A DNA stretch of 64,000 bases from Maylandia zebra. Taxonomy: Eukaryota > Chordata > Actinopteri > Cichliformes > Cichlidae. Every line of letters starts with the position of its first letter. Positions within the stretch are counted from its first letter, which is position 1. The notes beneath the pieces were generated by a model that saw nothing but the letters and a program-made list of their open reading frames with translations, ran no database searches and was not told the DNA's origin. Location of the stretch: the NCBI RefSeq assembly GCF_041146795.1, contig NC_135173.1, positions 69,044,751 to 69,108,750 of the forward strand, in the 5' to 3' direction. Shown in pieces: positions 14,346-61,000 of this stretch. Both the position numbers and the translations under genes were made by a program.

Positions 14346-16722
14346 TCAGAGGAACTCCTGGATCACTACCTCCTTCAGAGAGTGGGAGGACGCTTCCCCA
14401 CGCTCGGCATCTCTCAGAGCGGTCAACTCATCCTGCAGCTGAGCCACGGGCCGGCCCAATTGGTACCCGAGGTCCACCAGCAGCTCCAGCAGCGGCGCTC
14501 TGTAGCGCGTCAGTCCGTAGCGCCTCACCGGAGGCAGCGCTCTCTGAGCGGCGGAGAACGCCCGCTCCGGTTCGTCCAGGTCCCGGTAGCAGACAGCGAG
14601 GGCGGCGAGGGCGGGCACGAGGAGGGTGGGCTTCTGCCAGGGCAGCAGCTTCTCCTGGATGTCCAGCACGGTCTGCAGCAGCTCTGCGGCTGGCCGGAAC
14701 TGCCCCGCCCGGAGCAGGCCGTGCGCCCGCTGCTGCTCCTGCTCTGTGAAGAAAGCCGAGAAGCAAGGCGAGTGTCTGACGCAGCGCGTGGCGTACAGCT
14801 TCGCCAGGTAGTCCTGCAGCGCCAGGCGCCGCTCCCCGATGCTCTCGGGGGAGAAGTTCCCCGAGAGCATCTTGCGAGGCAGCTGCACCTCCTCCAGCTC
14901 CTCGTCAAACTCCTCCAGCAGTTTGTGGTGGAAGCGGGAGAAGTCGCTGTAGCGGCGCTCCACCGAAACACGGCGGGAATCGAAGCTGCCAGAACGCATC
15001 ACCACCACCTGGTAGAGCTGCAAACAAACAGAAAGAACCGTGACCTTTGACCTTTAAAGTTTAAAGTTAACTCTGCTGCAGCGCAAACAGCCAGTCAGAG
15101 AAACAGGCTGGACTTCCTGTTCCCTCTCAACGGTGAACCCACCGCAGGCGTCTTTTCTCTGAGACGTTATGCTGACGATTACATTCATTCATACAACACC
15201 GAATCACGACCGATCACCTCGAGGTGCTTTACACTGTAACATAAAGACTCTACAACCATACAAAGAAAACAGAGAACCCCCAACAGTCATGTGACCCCTA
15301 TGAGCAGCACTTTGGCGACAGTGGGAAGGAAAAACTCCCTTTTAACAGGAAGAAACCTCCAGCAGAACCAGGCTCAGGGAGGGGCGGGGCCATCTGCTGT
15401 GATTGGTTGAGGTGAGAGAAGGAAGACAGAAGAGAGACAGAAGTTAATAATAACCAATGATTAAACACCCAGTGCATCATGGGAATCACCCAGCAGCCTA
15501 CACCTATTGCACCATAACTAAGGGACTATGTGCTTCGTCCTGATGATGATGCTGTGTTTTGGTCCTCTGGGGCACCATAGACAAGCAGAAAGTTGCTGAT
15601 GTGTCAGTTTGAATATTTCCTTCATTATGGAGCACATTAGCTTCTGTGACCGCACGGCATCGGTTACCTGCACTCATCAATGAACAGCTCCCTGACTGAG
15701 TTTTACATGTTTGAGGTTTAAAATGAACACACCTGACAGTGGCAGGCAGGGAAACTGTTGGGACCGCACAGCAGGTGGACAGGTGAGTGCAGGCAGGTGT
15801 GTTAAAGCTGGTCTTTGGGTTGCTTATTATCTCAAATATGTCTTCATATAAAGATTTCACTGCTCAGCCAGTGCCTCTTATGACCAGAGTTCACCTTTAC
15901 TGCTTCCTGCTCCAACAGCCACACCTTTGGAAAATAAGCCCCTCCTCCTCAGGTTAAACTTTCACTTCCTGCGGGCTCACCTTCACTGAAAGTTAGCTGG
16001 GAACATTTACAGGTTAGCCGCTTTGCCCCTCATCCTCATCCTCTGTCTGAAAGAATCTCTTCTGATTGGCTGTCCCTCAAAAACAGAAGGTATTTCACCT
16101 CTATGACATCACAGGGATCCAAGAGTATAAAAACTGCTGAGCAGAGTGTTTGGAGTCGGCTGGTGGGTGTGTTTCGGTGTCTCACCACGTATTTGTGTAG
16201 CACGTGCTCGACGATGCGGGTGGAGGGGATCTCAAAGAGCAGCCGGACGGGTCGCTCTCGCTGCTTCACCGCCCTCCAGTTCTGCTGCAGCTCCTTAGTG
16301 GTTAAACTGGAAGAGCCAGGCAAGTCCTCTGAAACAGCAAACACAGCGAGTCAGCACCCACTGCTGGACTGGCACACCTGTGGAAAGGCTGCATTATTAG
16401 GGGCGGGGCCTCTTTGACTCTACGTGCTGCTTTAGCAGCTGCCAGCCTCTTTGAAACCCACCTCCCTACCAGCTCCTCTTTTCACTGTTTCTGACGTGAA
16501 TCATTGGCTGCAAACACATAAATATCTGCCAGATTAAAGCTCAGCGTCACTGTTTACTCGGGTGGAGGTCTGAAATGTGAGTGAGACTTGACCTAAAAGT
16601 TTGACGTCTCAGTTCAGACAGAAGAATGAAGAAGAGGAAGGTTAAAGGTGAAAGATGACAGAACCTGGAGTCATTGTGTCCACCTCAGTCAGGTCTTGGG
16701 CTCCCTGCTGAGCTTCTGCCAT
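14346..16722 (-). CDS. snx20: Sorting nexin 20
   Basis: SNX20 is an endosomal sorting nexin that binds phosphoinositides and, in mammals, carries the selectin ligand PSGL-1 to endosomes. Coding exons on minus are 16722-16665, 16328-16186 and 15017-14346, giving 290 residues (human 316). Exon 2 contains SLTTKELQQNW and RPVRLLFEIPS, the start of the PX domain. Exon 3 holds the PX core with ERRYSDFSRFHHKLL, the basic-loop segment LPRKMLSGNFSPESIGERR, and then the helical TPR-like PXB domain to the C-terminus VIQEFL. The GSFD and FEI signatures fit SNX20 better than SNX21. Exon 1 (MAEAQQGAQDLTEVDTMTP) is inferred from a clean donor and matching phase 1 and is less certain than exons 2-3. The gene diverges from bcl2l14. 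Confidence 0.9.
15185..15470 (-). repeat. LINE 3'-end repeat in snx20 intron 2
   Basis: On minus the block contains TTTCTTCCTGTTAAAAGGGA, CACTGTCGCC and CACCTCGAGGTGATCGG-type words near 15200. The same consensus occurs at 9115-9245, at 20240-20815 and briefly near 17310. It is a common percomorph LINE 3' region. The intron otherwise shows nothing coding. Confidence 0.7.

Positions 16723-23899: not shown

Positions 23900-34882
<10,983 letters not shown>

Positions 34883-39407: not shown

Positions 39408-39468
<61 letters not shown>
39408..39468. repeat. (CA)n microsatellite in the tbc1d15 3' UTR
   Basis: About 30 CA units on plus, read as (GT)n in the tbc1d15 transcript if the 3' UTR extends to the signal at 38980. 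Confidence 0.95.
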
Positions 39469-39531: not shown

Positions 39532-41422
39532 CTACGATACAAAGGCCCCTCTGCCACTCTGCTCGCAGCTGCTTTCTCTCGAGTGTCCGTTGGAGACGCC
39601 AACCTCCCGCCGAGCTGCTCCGGAAGTCGCCGCCGAGCCGCAATCGGTCGAGCCTGCACGGCGAGACTCGACGTCAAAGCCCAAGATGGTGGCGACAGGG
39701 CGAGGGAGGTCCTGAGGAGGAGCAGACAGGTCAGGGTGAGGGGTCAGATGGACGTACCATGACAGAAGACGCTCCCTGCACTCACCTTGCAGCTCCTGAT
39801 CTGCAGACAGATGCCCTCAGCTTTCTGCAGGATCTCCTCGATGTCCAGCTTCATGGAGAGCTCGTTGATGTGCTGAAACACACAGGTCGGTGAACAATCT
39901 CAGGTGTGCACAGATCTCCGGGCAGCTTTGGGGCGATGCTCACCTTCAGGATCTCGTTGAAGCCGTAGTTCTCCTCCATGATCTTCTGCTTCTCTGAGTC
40001 CAGGATGGCGCAGCACACCAGCAGGTGAAAGTTCTCACAGGGCAGCCCGGTCCACATCACCTGAGGATGAACCACACGTGAGACCACAGGAAGAACGACA
40101 CCTGTCAGCACCTCCGACCCCGCAGGAGGACACCAACCTCCCAGAGCCGCAGCACGTCCACGAAGCTCAGTTCCCTCTTGAACCTGATGAGCAGCCAGCG
40201 GAAGCAGAAATACAGGTATCCTGAATCCTGAGACTCTGAGACACAGACAGAGGGGGCGGAGTCATTCAGAGCCGCCGCTATTCACAGCAAACACACACGC
40301 ACAGCTGCAGGCGGCGTACCGAGGTAGTTCCAGAAGGCAAGGTCGAGCAGCCTGAGCAGCGAGCTGAGCTGGATCAGCTGAGTCTTCATGCCCTGCATCT
40401 GCTCCTCAAAGTTCTCGTGCTGCAGGACACACGGCGGTAAATCAGCACGCGGTTAAACGTCCGAGCTGTCAGAGCAAAGATCAGACTCACCATCTGGTCC
40501 ATGAAGGCCACGAAGCACCAGAAAGCCTCGACCTCATTCTCCATGACGTAGAGGATGGGCGACAGCAGGTCGCTCATGCCCTGAACGTAACCTGCAACAC
40601 AGAGAGCTTCCTGTCACGACCAGGAAACGGGAAGCGGCGCCGTACCTGCGGAGGCAAAGCGTTCGCTCACCCAGGTCGAAGTCGTACATGCAGTAGGTCA
40701 TGAGGATGTCGTGCAGCAGGACCAGGCCCGGGTTGTCGATGCCCTCGTAGAAGCGGTTCGTTCGGTCTGTTCGGTTCACGTCCTTCTCTGAGAGCGCAGA
40801 CACATACGTCACATGACCTTTGACCTTTACCCCCTCACGGCAAGCTGTACCACCCAACTCAGAAGACCAAAGCGGTCGTTGCTCAACTCCCGCAGCTCTC
40901 CCTCCACCTCACCGCGGCAGTAACTGAGCATTCACTCGAGTACCTCACTGAAGTACTGCGTTCACTCCCCGTACTGCAGTATTTCACACGTAAAAACTCC
41001 TTTAACTTTACAGGTAACGCCTCAGATCTGATCCCGGCGACAGTGTTACGATCTCACCCACCTGCTGCACCCGACTCCACGCTGACATCATCTCCAGCAT
41101 CAGAGCAAGAATCAATCGCTCATCAATGCTTCTGATTCTTTGGCACATCAAACATCACAAACACCTTCAAATGTGACGTCATCCACCCGCTACACTGGAC
41201 TGCTCTCCATCAGGAGCCCCGCCCAAATAACCAAACAAGGCCTGAGCCGAGGTGCTGCTCACCGATCAGACTGCGGTAGTCTCTCAGTCTGGAGTTCCTC
41301 CTCTCCTGCTCCTCACTCACAGATTTCCACTGCAGCTTCATCCTGAAGTATTCATCACTGACACACACACACACACACACACCCCTCATGTTAACATGAT
41401 ATACACACCAGTCAGGGTAATC

Positions 41423-41461
<39 letters not shown>

Positions 41462-44400
41462 TTTTCTCTCTCTGCAGGGTCTTCCTCTCCTCGTGCGTGC
41501 TCTCCCAGGGATAATACCCCAGCAGGAACTTCCAGGCCTCCTTCCTGAGGGCGTGGCACAGACCCTGCAGACGACACAGACGCGTCAGGGCGTGGTCTCT
41601 GCTCGTTTCAATCAGTGTCACAGGTCAAAACACCAACGAGTGCTTTACAGTAAACTCAGGCATAAAAACCAAAGTGAAGATCAAACAGCCCAAAACTGAA
41701 TAAATGAGTGATGCTGCTAAGAATCACGTCAGCTGATTGGTTCAGAGCTGGACACACCCACAGACACGTACGTACCCCCTTGAAGACGGCGTGTTTCAGG
41801 TCTGGGACATCCTTCATCCTCCCGTCTGCATCCTGGTGTCGCGCCCAGTCGTCTGCAGTCAGCGGCGACTTCCTGCTCACCTCGGGCCTCGTGCCCAGGT
41901 CGATCTGACGGGGTCAAAGGTGAGCAAAGAGCATCACACGGCTGACACACCCGCTGCCACGCGTCTGCCTAACAGCCAATCACATTAGACCCCTCACCCT
42001 GGTGATGACCTCGAAGCCCGGCTCTTCCTGCTGGTTGATCTCCAGCCCCGGGATGACCTCGCCCAGCAGGTCGGCCACCTCCTCTGGGGGGCGCTGTTGC
42101 TGCTCCTCCATCCCCCGCAGCGCGTCGAATAAGTAGTTTGTGACTTTGGAGAAGCCGCCGAGCGTGGTGACGTACGGGTCCCGCTTGAACTTCTGCAGGA
42201 GACAAACGCAGAGCTCATCAGCCGACGGACGCCGGAACAAGATGGAGCGCACGACTCCAAACGTCATCTGAAAATAAATCCTACGACGTGTTTTCACAGA
42301 CAGAATTCTACGTGTGAAACCAGAGCAGCCAACAGCCCACCGCAGCGACCTCGCTCACAAAACCAACACACAGATTTATTTAGTTTGAAATAAATGCGCT
42401 GATGCACAGCAGCTTCCACAGAAACATCTGCGTGAAGATCACACGTTAATGTGTCCGTTTAAATCACCATGGTAACAGCTGCTGAACCCCTCACTCACTA
42501 TGAGGACCATGTGATGCTCACACTTTTATGTGCAGCATGTTTCCGTGCGACAGAGTCCCTGTGCGCACGTCGCCGCACTCCATGACGTTGACACGTCGCA
42601 TGCTAAAACCTCATAAATGTGTTTTTGTACCTGCAGTACACCACAGGAAGCTGTGGGGGCAGCATCGCTGCATCACCTGCCCAGACTGCACTCAGCACAC
42701 AAATAATCGAAGAGAAATCAGACAGGTTAATCGACGACCAAATAATCTATAGTTGCACCCCCGTGTGCGCGCGTGTGCGTGCATGTTTGTGCATGCGAAT
42801 CCAGATGTTTGAGCCTAACAGCTGGCAGTGAGAGATGGTTAAACTTCTTACGTGAACCAGGCCGAAGTTGTTGTCGTCCAGAAGGTTCTCGAAGGACTGC
42901 GACAGAGCTTTGTTTGGCGTGCTGACCAGCAGGCACGTGTGGTCGCTGGGAGACCTGCAAACAGGAAACATGTGACCTCAGTAACAGCTCACAGGATCAA
43001 CGCCGGCCTTCTGATAACAAACGGGTGCTTATTATTCACGGCGCGAGCGGCAAATCAGACATCAGAGGAAGCGCTCGTCTCTTTGGGGTGTACAGATTCT
43101 ATCAGCCAATCAGCAGGCAGCACGTGGGCGGGACGTCATTATGAAGCCTGATAAGAACTTTAATAACAGCTATCTGCCCCCGCCTCACCCGATATTTGGA
43201 TCAGAGGGACGGGAACGCTGCCGCACGCCTGTGGAAATCAGCCATTAGCATATAAATGACCCGAGAGAGCGGCGCCGGCGCCAAATCCCCCCGCAGCCCC
43301 CACCCCAAGGTGGAGTAACATTTATATGTCTTCCTGACTGAGAGTAACTTGAATAAACTGTCTGTGACACAAACACCAATAACTTGATCTGTATGTGAAC
43401 CTGACCAGCCCCCCCCCCCCCCCCAAACAAAACAAAACAAAAAACAAAAAAAAACAAAAAAAAAAACAGCCCTCCTTGAGGTGGAGGGCGGGGTCAGAGC
43501 TTAACATCAACCGCTGGACTCACTCTGTGAGCAGAGCGAACCTCCTCAGGCTGTCCAGGAACGCTCTGCTGCCACCCTGGTGGAAGTGCAGATGTGGCAG
43601 CGGGGTGGAGGAGTCCTTCAGCTGCAGGATGATGAAGGTCCAGCCCTCCTCCCTCACCGTGACGGAGCGGAGGTCACTGACACTGAAGGCGAAGGCCAAG
43701 CGGCTCCTCTCGTGGCTGCTGTTGAGAGAACCTGGAGACAGGAAGCAGGGATTAGAAAAAACAGGGATTTCAAAATAAAAGCTCAGATCAGCCGATGCAC
43801 CCGTCTGGCTCAGGCTGCTGAGAGTCTTCACGACCTGCAGATGCAGCCCGGCAGCTCGAGGCTAGGCTGCAGTCGACAGCATTAAAATTCCTCATCGCCT
43901 CTGAAGCTGAGTCACGTGATTCCAACATGCCGAGCAGGTTAAAGCAGCCGCTCACCCTCCATGTTGGAGCTCCGCCTCTTCCTGAACGACACGGCGTTCA
44001 CCATGTCCCACTCTGTCTCGTAGCTCAGCTGAGCCTCCAACAGCTGCTGAGACTGTGGACGGTCCCCTGGACACTGAGCCCACTCCACCACCGAGCTCGA
44101 GTCCTGCGCACACACACTCTTAAATCACCTTTACATGAATTTTTATGTTTTTTTTGGTTTGTTTAAAAATCTGTTCTTGGAAACTTTGAAGTTTGAATGT
44201 AATCAAATCAGGAAATTCGGTTTGTTGATACTCAATTTGAGTCAATAAAGTTGAACTCTACTGAGTGGGAGTATTTGGACAAACCTTCCCAGCACAGAGC
44301 ATGTTTGAGGGGTCGACGCCGTCCTCCAGAGGTCTATACTCCACCACGATCTCGGCGTCCTGACGGCGAGGACACACATTGACACATTACTTCATCGATC

Positions 44401-45363
44401 AATCAAACAAATCACAGGAGCGTTCAGGAAGAAAGAGCGCTTCTGTTCCGATCGCATAGATCTATAAACAATCAATAACAGTGACAAACCGGAGCTTTAT
44501 TCCAGCCAATCATGTGCAGTTTAACAGGTCTTTGATTAAGCAATCAGGTTATCACCCTGGTATCAAACATGCTGCTGGTGTGTGAGGATGTTTTTCTCTT
44601 CAAGTCGTTCCATCGCAGAGACATTCTGATACTTAATCGATGACCAGGCTGACTAATCGATACCAGAGTGTGTCGGGACTGTTACCTTTTCAAGGATCCG
44701 GAGGGTTCCTGAAACCAGGAAGTCTGGCTCGATCTCCTCATCACTGCTGGGATGGAGGAAGACTCCCTCGTGTTCAAATATCACCTGTGGAGCAGAGTCA
44801 CAGTGAGGTCAGCTGAAGGATCAATACAGCAGGCAGGAAGTCTGATCACATCACATGACGTCTGAGGACTCAGGGCATTGTGGGAAAAATAACCTGCGAT
44901 ACAGCGAGAAGGTGGCACACCTGTTCACACCTGTGCCACCCGCAATCAGAGCTTCAGATAAAACCACTGATCAATACTAATCAAAACAAATCAATCAGGT
45001 TCCCCTGAGATCAATCACGCAAACTTGAAGCGGTCTGCTGAGGTTCACCGGTCCGCCCAGGGACCACTGCACGCTAGCTTAACCCAGCCTGTCCCCTGAG
45101 AGCCCCGACCCTCAGCCCTACGCCGACCGCAGACAGCGTCCGGGCCGGAGAGGCGGACAGAGGCCGGCGGATAGCCGCCTCCCGAGGCAGCTGCGGTCGG
45201 TGAGCTCAGTGGCTATCCGAGCAGCGGCGGCGCAGAGCCGGAGGACAGAGCTCCCGGCCCGACAGGACGGAGCTCTCTTCTCCCCGCCGCGGAGCTCCGG
45301 CCTCCGCGGCAGAATCCCGGAAACGCGATCATGTTTTACCTTGAACGCAGGCTCCGCCGCCAT
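39532..45363 (-). CDS. tbc1d15: TBC1 domain family member 15 (Rab GAP)
   Basis: TBC1D15 is a GTPase-activating protein for Rab7. It acts at lysosomes and, through Fis1, at mitochondria, where it shapes mitophagy. Coding exons on minus are 45363-45340, 44784-44686, 44359-44285, 44103-43956, 43731-43524, 42954-42852, 42192-41998, 41904-41776, 41564-41461, 41357-41263, 40787-40671, 40591-40491, 40419-40320, 40235-40138, 40060-39944, 39872-39786 and 39711-39532. They give 659 residues in phase throughout, close to the shorter human isoform. The TBC domain keeps the arginine finger (EKDVNRTDRTNRFYEG) and the glutamine finger (YVQGMSDLLSP), so GAP activity is expected. The start MAAEPAFK is in a GC-rich region. 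The C-terminal 59 residues are Ser/Arg-rich and unlike the human tail. Intron 9 is unusual (see findings). Confidence 0.96.
41358..41460 (-). other. tbc1d15 intron 9 with (AC)17 ... (GT)11 ends
   Basis: In the sense strand this 103-base intron starts GT and goes at once into (AC)17. It ends with (GT)11 followed by CAG. There is no pyrimidine tract at the acceptor other than the GT run. The two repeats are complementary and can pair, leaving a loop of about 40 bases. Comparable (AC)m-(GT)n introns have been described in fish. Confidence 0.85.
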
Positions 45364-58000: not shown

Positions 58001-61000
58001 GGAAGCAAGAAGAATGAGTTTAATAAAGTTTGATTTATCTGACTGCTTTGTTTCGCTTAATGTGCCTTACAGTGGGGCAAAAAAGTATTTAGTCAGCCAC
58101 CGATTGTGCAAGTTCCCCCACTTAAAATGATGACAGAGGTCAGTAATTTGCACCAGAGGTACACTTCAACTGTGAGAGACAGAATGTGAAAAGAAAAATC
58201 CATGAATCCACATGGTAGGATTTGTAAAGAATTTATTGGTAAATCAGGGTGGAAAATAAGTATTTGGTCACCTCAAACAAGGAAAATCTCTGGCTCTCAC
58301 AGACCTGTAACGTCTTCTGTAAGAAGCTTTTCTGTCCCCCACTCGTTACCTGTATGAATGGCACCTGTTTGAACTCATCATCTGTATAAAAGACACCTGT
58401 CCACAGCCTCAAACAGTCAGACTCCAAACTCCGCCATGGCCAAGACCAAAGAGCTTTCGAAGGACACCAGGAAAAGTATTGTAGACCTGCACCAGACTGG
58501 GAAGAGTGAATCTACAATAGGCAAGCAGCTTGGTGTGAAAAAATCAACTGTGGGAGCAATCATCAGAAAATGGAAGACATACAAGACCACTGATAATCTC
58601 CCTCGATCTGGGGCTCCACGCAAGATCTCATCCCGTGGGGTCAAAATGATCATGAGAACGGTGAGCAAAGATCCCAGAACCACACGGGGGGACCTGGTGA
58701 ATGACCTGCAGAGAGCTGGGACCAAAGTAACAAAGGTCACCATCAGTAACACACTACAACGGCAGGGAATCAAATCCCGCAGTGCCAGACGTGTTCCGCT
58801 GCTGAAGCCAGTGCATGTCCAGGCCTGTCTGAAGTTTGCCAGAGAGCACATGGATGATACAGCAGAGGATTGGGAGAATGTCATGTGGTCAGATGAAACC
58901 AAAGTAGAACTTTTTGGTATAAACTCAACTCGTCGTGTTTGGAGGAAGAAGAATACTGAGTTGCATCCCAAGAACACCATACCTACTGTGAAGCATGGGG
59001 GTGGAAACATCATGCTATGGGGCTGTTTTTCTGCCAAGGGGACAGGACGACGGATCCGTGTTAAGGACAGAATGAATGGGGCCATGTATCGTGAGATTTT
59101 GAGCCAAAACCTCCTTCCATCAGTAAGAACTTTGAAGATGAAACGAGGCTGGGTCTTCCAACATGACAATGATCCAAAACACACCGCCCGGGCAACAAAG
59201 GAGTGGCTCCGTAAGAAGCATTTGAAAGTCCTGGAGTGGCCTAGCCAGTCTCCAGACCTCAACCCCATAGAAAATCTGTGGCGGGAGTTGAAAGTCCGTG
59301 TTGCTCGGCGACAGCCCCAAAACATCACTGCTCTCGAGAAGATCTGCATGGAGGAATGGGCCAAAATACCAGCTACTGTGTGTGCAAACCTGGTAAAGAC
59401 CTATAGTAAACGTTTGACCTCTGTTATTGCCAACAAAGGTTATGTTACAAAGTATTGAGTTGTATTTTTGTTATTGACCAAATACTTATTTTCCACCCTG
59501 ATTTACCAATAAATTCTTTACAAATCCTACCATGTGGATTCATGGATTTTTTTTTCACATTCTGTCTCTCACAGTTGAAGTGTACCTCTGGTGCAAATTA
59601 CTGACCTCTGTCATCATTTTAGGTGGGGGAACTTGCACAATCGGTGGCTGACTAAATACTTTTTTGCCCCACTGTATAATCCCGTGCACCTTATGGTCCG
59701 AAAAATGTGTACTGCACACTGCAGTTTAATGTTGCAAAGCACCTCTTTTTAACTTCAGTGGATATTATACATGGTTATGCTCAGGATATGTCAGCCCATT
59801 TCTACTGGAAATGCCTTTTGGTTAAATTTTCAGCAAGGAATTTGCATTTGCACTGTTAAATTTTTATAAAGCTTTAATGTACATAAAAACCAGCTTCTTG
59901 TTTAAGTGAAAATAAATGGAAGGTTGTCTTTTTGCACTAGTAATGTTGTGGAGTTGTATTTTGTCTCGCATCAATTATATCGTCAGTTATATCGTTATCG
60001 CAAATTTTCAAATATATATCGTGATAAATATTTTTGGCCATATCGCCCTGATCTATTTCACACTTTTTAAAATATTAAGATTTCTATGCCGTTCTTTGGC
60101 CCATTAAAATGAATGAACAAGCGTAGAGCTGGGCGATAGAACGATGACGATATGTATCGCGAAATAACTTTTTCTCGATAGAAAAATTATTGTGATAGAC
60201 CTCGCCGCTCTTGTCCTCTTAAAAAAAAGAAAAAAAAGAAGGACAGCCAATCCAAATGAAGTAGCGCAGAGCCGAACCAATCACAGCCGCAGTGTCACGT
60301 CACGTGACTTGTTACGTACAGCACAAGTGCCAAGCCGCACGTGTGTATTTGTTTTGGGAAGCAGCCAGCCGCCGTGCCGCCGGGTAATGGAGGAAATGAG
60401 TGTGCCGACTAGAGAAACATCAACCGAGAGCGTGACCGAAGGTTACCGAAGAGAAAACAGATGATGGTTCCAATGCCGGAGAGATTGTCGAACGGAAGAG
60501 CCACAGAAGCTCCGCAGTGTGAAGGTATTTCTGCTATTTCAAGTCTGACAAAAACAGAGCAGCCACTGTAAATGTGCCGAAAGCAAGTCTGGAAATACGA
60601 TAAAGCGGTGCAGCTCAGTCTCTGACTGGAAGCGCTGATTCATCATTCGGCTTTTGTCAGACTAAAGTAACTGTTAAAACTGTTTGAAAAGCTCAGCTAT
60701 ACAACAAGGAGAGATTGAGAATTTCCTTTTAGTTCTCAGTTTATTTGATATTGACAAAAGTTAGTCAGTTTTGTCTGTTATTCTGTAAAACAAACTAAGA
60801 TTTATTTTTAGAATTAATATTTTGTTTCTAAGTGGAATTGACAGTTTAGTCTGTTTCGTTTGTTCTATTTTGAAACTTAAACGCTTTAGCGGCTGCCTTT
60901 TGTGTAGTTTGCAATATTTGCCTTTATTTATCTGAAAAAGTCTCATGTTCCTTAAGTACATCTACCCTGTTGAACTTATTATGGGAAATAAATATTTAAA

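Follow-up and report, generated by a model that had tools for sequence, protein, structure and literature searches.

Structure of tbc1d15 in the window

The window, by which we mean the whole 64,000-nucleotide stretch of Maylandia zebra DNA analyzed here, carries tbc1d15 on its minus strand (Table 1). Our hand-built model of the gene reads as one open frame from ATG to stop (659 aa), interrupted by 16 GT-AG introns; the predicted protein has a PH_RBD domain at residues 9-208 and a RabGAP-TBC domain at residues 332-560. Exon 1 (24 nt) was placed from the reading frame, the bases at its splice site and the known human protein rather than by a homology test. The number 9 used for the intron described below depends on this model, and the numbering could shift.

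Elsewhere in the window, we observed a Tc1/Sleeping Beauty-type transposase frame on the plus strand at 58373-59455 (stop-to-stop length 361 codons; HTH and DDE_3 domains), a 64-base unit repeated in tandem about 9 times with 93% matches at 26950-27529, and a PX-domain frame on the minus strand at 14349-15053 (E 2e-16), possibly a sorting-nexin-like gene. About 65 bases past the tbc1d15 stop, positions 39408-39467 hold (AC)30 on the plus strand, or (GT)30 in the sense direction, probably within the 3′ UTR.

Table 1. Features of tbc1d15 and of its intron 9, in window coordinates; a slash marks an exon-intron boundary
Feature	Position	Strand	Details
tbc1d15 coding region	39532..45363	minus	17 coding exons; hand-built model, 659 aa; PH_RBD and RabGAP-TBC domains
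Exon 9	41461..41564	minus	104 nt; 3′ end ...CTG CAG AGA GAG AAA AC/; gene model and homology
Donor AAC/GTACAC	41455..41463	minus	4/9 U1 pairs, fewest among the 16 introns
Intron 9	41358..41460	minus	103 nt, phase 2; (AC)m-(GU)n type; sense intron read directly
(AC)17 arm beside donor GT	41425..41458	minus	(GT)17 on the plus strand
Core separating the arms	41383..41424	minus	42 nt
Second branch-point-like motif CTGAC	41410..41414	minus	A at 41412, 54 nt from the acceptor; motif only
Palindrome TCATGTTAACATGA	41386..41399	minus	14 bases; predicted 5-bp side hairpin with UUAA loop
Candidate branch point TTAAC	41390..41394	minus	A at 41391, 33 nt from the acceptor; motif match
(GT)11 arm beside acceptor	41361..41382	minus	(AC)11 on the plus strand
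Acceptor CAG	41358..41360	minus	sense read
Exon 10	41263..41357	minus	95 nt; 5′ end /T GAT GAA TAC TTC AGG; gene model and homology

Intron 9 begins and ends in complementary repeats

Read in the sense direction, intron 9 consists of GT, (AC)17, the core, (GT)11 and CAG. The sequence-only reading of this DNA had described just such a layout of 103 bases with complementary ends, and direct reading confirmed it to the base, with the AC and GT runs at the exact ends of the intron. The intron carries U2-type features, namely GT...AG ends and a YTNAY-like motif upstream of the acceptor, YTNAY being the branch-point motif. Besides the two branch-point-like motifs in Table 1, a third, CTGAT, lies 63 nt from the acceptor. 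A U12-type intron was set aside on account of the GT-AG ends.

The placement of these ends was examined at the protein level. A 172-aa piece spanning the exon 9-10 junction (LQREKT/DEYFRMKLQW) aligned without gaps to pig TBC1D15 (E 1.1e-101); the same piece was gapless across the junction against shark TBC1D15 (E 2.7e-97) and gapless against a TBC1D17 chain (species not given; E 1e-78). Since homology runs unbroken through the junction, the repeats sit exactly at the splice sites of intron 9, and we regard these boundaries as firm on the strength of sequence homology; misplaced splice sites are thereby ruled out. The alternative that the exon boundaries are wrong, with the repeats lying away from the splice sites, is exceedingly improbable, given the gapless alignment, a frame that stays open through the whole gene and an intron of the same position and phase in a paralogue (see below). 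The junction falls at residue 362, inside the RabGAP-TBC domain. Thus, the gapless TBC1D15 homology and the open frame uphold the earlier identification of the gene and its splice sites, and the exon 9-10 join does lie within the TBC-domain coding region, as had been proposed. According to the model, retention of intron 9 would extend the protein by 12 residues past T362 before a stop codon is reached. With so early a stop, mis-splicing would lose most of the RabGAP domain.

Both splice sites of intron 9 are weak

Both splice sites of intron 9 are weak, the donor as well as the acceptor. The donor consensus score is 5/9, the joint lowest, with intron 13, among the 16 introns of tbc1d15. On the acceptor side, no pyrimidine run in the 40 nt upstream of the CAG exceeds 2 nt, the lowest maximum of the 16 (3-8 nt in the other 15 introns), which bears out the earlier remark that a pyrimidine tract is missing. 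Measured instead as pyrimidines in the last 20 nt, intron 9 (10/20) equals intron 11, and intron 3 is lower still (8/20). Intron 3 (44104-44284, minus strand) ends in GTGTGTGTGCGCAG, which is GU-rich and pyrimidine-poor, and it has no AC partner. A GU-rich acceptor alone is therefore no proof that pairing is needed.

Intron 9 is predicted to fold into one intron-spanning hairpin

We folded intron 9 together with 20 exon bases per side and obtained a minimum energy of -62 kcal/mol. None of 200 dinucleotide shuffles folded as well (mean -45.6, sd 3.8; z -4.31). Folded alone, the intron gave an energy per base of -0.518, versus -0.17 to -0.398 in 11 other tbc1d15 introns; this comparison covered introns 2-4, 7, 8 and 11-16, all shorter than 400 nt (71-326 nt). 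Of the 22 bases of the GU arm, an expected 21.9 are paired with the AC arm at 37 C, 21.9 at 28 C and 22.0 at 20 C, and in the best fold the surplus AC units pair with the GU-rich part of the core. The A of the TTAAC motif showed a pairing of 0.0 at all three temperatures, being exposed in the loop of the predicted palindrome hairpin, and the CTGAC motif was predicted to be paired at 0.28-0.59. The predicted fold also buries donor positions +4 to +6 (C4-A5-C6), with a pairing of 0.96-0.99 over 37, 28 and 20 C; predicted pairing was 0.71-0.84 for G1 and U2 at +1 and +2 (about 0.7 at 37 C) and 0.98-1.0 for the last G of the intron. With its donor bases paired in this way, U1 would need to open the helix.

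The sequence-only reading had suggested that length variation in either repeat could change splicing. Modeling the two arms separately supports this for the GT arm and not for the AC arm. With AC fixed at 17 units, GT arms of 6, 8, 11 and 14 units gave -40.5, -49.1, -62.0 and -73.4, so that shortening from 11 to 6 units was costly. With GT fixed at 11 units, AC arms of 11, 14, 17 and 22 units gave -57.7, -60.5, -62.0 and -62.0; cutting the arm from 17 to 11 units had only a small effect, and lengthening it to 22 had none. Because the AC arm has surplus units, it is the GT arm that limits the predicted stability.

Long complementary arms at exact intron ends look rare in the genome

We searched the genome (962 Mb, 63 contigs) for end-anchored repeat pairs, using reversed patterns as the control. 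The strict pattern GT(AC)6-N50-80-(GT)6CAG matched once genome-wide, at tbc1d15 intron 9, and its reversed control gave 0 matches. A genome full of identical introns was accordingly set aside, the strict long-arm pattern having matched only tbc1d15 in its gap range. The looser pattern GTACACACAC-N-GTGTGTGTCAG gave 2 matches at gaps of 45-75 (control 0) and 2 at gaps of 76-106 (control 1). Overall, the looser pattern was found at 4 places versus 1 in the control, comprising 2 supported introns, 1 possible intron and 1 unsupported match; all 3 matches besides tbc1d15 have at least one short arm. A variant pattern with a GTGAGT donor, an AC run behind it and a GT run ahead of CAG matched nowhere in the genome, and its control likewise gave 0. 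Unanchored (AC)6..(GT)6 pairs numbered 1621 versus 1391 in reversed order, a slight excess in counts that are redundant (several per place), and some of the matches listed for contig C1 were AT-rich palindromic repeats, so these pairs are of little use. The pattern GT(AC)17 had 857+816 genome matches versus 289+281 for its reverse. Together, exact long-arm introns look rare within the gap ranges searched, a result that has no bearing on looser, more distant repeats.

The best-supported match outside tbc1d15 lies in an NF-X1 zinc-finger gene (L025, 1501-1624), where an intron runs from GTACACACAC to GTGTGTGTCAG with exact ends. A longer piece joined by eye matched zf-NF-X1 (E 5.8e-11), its best stretch lying away from the junction, and in a PDB search a 131-residue piece matched FAP1 (E 2.2e-16), the alignment crossing the junction with a gap of one residue at that point; a Pfam search with short pieces around the junction gave no match. 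On this sequence evidence, we consider the intron supported. It resembles tbc1d15 intron 9 in having an AC run at the donor and a GT run at the acceptor, both at the exact ends; unlike intron 9, it has short arms (AC4 and GT4), and its GT run is preceded by a C-rich pyrimidine tract. By eye, other introns of the same gene seem to bear AC runs near their donors, and at 2131-2205 a further apparent intron closes with TAG after more than 60 bases of GT run, with only short AC-rich stretches near its donor.

The match at L026 is a possible intron. Two of its three phases are open on both sides over 120 bases, and one looks protein-like by eye; no family was supported (best Pfam E 0.036, below the cut-off; PDB E 0.055). 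At L027, no phase was open on both sides of the match. The class thus seems to extend past tbc1d15 to at least one more gene, in a count of few matches and a small excess over the control.

A paralogue has an intron at the matching site that lacks paired repeats

A protein search of the genome identified a second gene of the tbc1d15/17 family at C4:32.32 Mb. Its protein is similar to both TBC1D15 (E 9.9e-43) and TBC1D17 (E 2.2e-38), and either name fits. One of its introns (L048, 2509-2935) has the position and phase of tbc1d15 intron 9 (AAAAC/.../GGATGAGTACTTC), suggesting that the intron predates the gene duplication. The paralogue intron is longer, at 427 nt (GTTAGT...CCCTTCTGCGTGTGCAG), and has a better donor (6 U1 pairs) and 12/20 pyrimidines before the CAG. 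Unlike tbc1d15 intron 9, it lacks paired repeats: its ends hold no AC or GT run of at least 4 units, and one (AC)4 lies mid-intron at L048 2724. Either the paired repeats are derived in tbc1d15 or they were lost in the paralogue.

Intron 9 resembles the (AC)m-(GU)n introns of fish

An intron class with such repeats, (AC)m-(GU)n, is reportedly present in about 10% of zebrafish genes, a figure attributed to Lin et al. in 2016. In the published accounts, zebrafish (AC)m-(GU)n introns form hairpins (PMC9024468, PMC7404189, PMC9198270, PMC9508853), are spliced without U2AF2 (PMC9024468, PMC9198270, PMC9508853), are attributed to fish and lamprey (PMC7404189) and have folding energies up to two-fold lower (PMC9024468). 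The likeness to this class pointed out in the sequence-only reading stood up on both sequence features: intron 9 has an AC repeat near the donor and a complementary GU repeat near the acceptor. It also shows the fold feature, a predicted intron-spanning hairpin with an energy well below that of 11 introns of the same gene (71-326 nt), and its energy per base agrees with the lower energies given for the class in PMC9024468. Sharing with the zebrafish class the AC repeat on the donor side, the GU repeat on the acceptor side, a single intron-spanning hairpin and a low folding energy, intron 9 likely belongs to it.

Two published systems help to place it. According to PMC9024468, cep97 intron 5, of the zebrafish class, has its branch point masked in double-stranded parts and its terminal Gs unpaired. 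tbc1d15 intron 9 differs, in that its best branch-point candidate is predicted to be unpaired, its last G to be paired at 0.98 and its first G at about 0.7. Fungal stwintrons with terminal inverted repeats, as described in PMC9024468, are like intron 9 in having an end-to-end stem of a spliceosomal intron, and unlike it in being nested introns without AC-GU repeats. No mention of tbc1d15 intron 9 was found in the titles and abstracts of the literature searched, including papers that cite the zebrafish class. The mechanism has already been described in zebrafish (Lin et al. 2016, Genome Res 26:12, doi 10.1101/gr.181008.114); what is new here is the tbc1d15 example, whose candidate branch point is predicted to lie unpaired.

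Discussion

We favor as probable the reading that intron 9 adds a new case to the vertebrate (AC)m-(GU)n class, its removal being aided by the modeled helix. In the pre-mRNA, (AC)17 after the donor would pair with (GU)11 before the acceptor, setting both weak splice sites at the foot of one hairpin, and the candidate branch point UUAAC would stay unpaired near the hairpin tip. The helix would probably make up both for the absent pyrimidine tract and for the poorly matched donor, and intron 9 may then be removed with U2AF2 hardly or not at all required. We infer that the fold is present in cells and that U2AF2 can be dispensed with; it is plausible that splicing of intron 9 depends on the fold. 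Counting against this reading, the donor positions that U1 must reach are paired in the predicted fold, and intron 3, with a GU-rich acceptor poorer in pyrimidines than that of intron 9, has no AC partner.

Other explanations dispense with the helix. Proteins could define the intron instead, with hnRNP L-type binders of CA repeats on the AC arm and TDP-43- or CELF-type binders of UG repeats on the GU arm; these would bind single strands and bridge or regulate the intron ends, and the helix would be irrelevant. Long, pure CA and UG runs would suit such binders, and the partnerless GU-rich acceptor of intron 3 offers a fitting case in tbc1d15 itself. The predicted duplex is very stable, however, and UG binders near acceptors are better known as repressors. 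Single-strand binding, moreover, needs no complementary arms at exact opposite ends, an arrangement seen once genome-wide at such length in the gap range searched, and we judge a protein-defined intron unlikely.

We hold it unlikely that the repeats are neutral microsatellites. On that account, AC and GT repeats grew in an ordinary intron, exon definition and recognition of the CAG suffice for splicing, and the hairpin is either without function or mildly costly. The paralogue speaks for it, because its matching intron, which lacks paired repeats, implies that the site is presumably spliceable in the conventional manner; the abundance of GT(AC)17 over its reverse and the partial hiding of donor bases in the predicted fold also favor it. 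However, among the 16 introns, intron 9 combines the fewest U1 pairs with the shortest pyrimidine run (its pyrimidine fraction is not the lowest), a pairing of defects that would be hard to keep uncompensated. The 4 end-anchored pairs versus 1 in the control, at least 2 of them in real introns, likewise argue against neutrality, in numbers that are small.

For splicing driven by structure, intron 9 is a clean test case: it is short enough for a minigene and has long pure arms and weak splice sites, its candidate branch point is predicted to lie unpaired, and the paralogue intron serves as an internal control. A more far-reaching scenario, which we rate as rather unlikely, is that an ancient tbc1d15/17 intron turned structure-spliced in one fish lineage. 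Repeat growth would have let the donor and the acceptor decay together, the branch point would be displayed on its own hairpin tip, and the length of the (GU) arm would tune tbc1d15 output. If so, intron 9 would be a natural splicing switch, sensitive to microsatellite length and to temperature.
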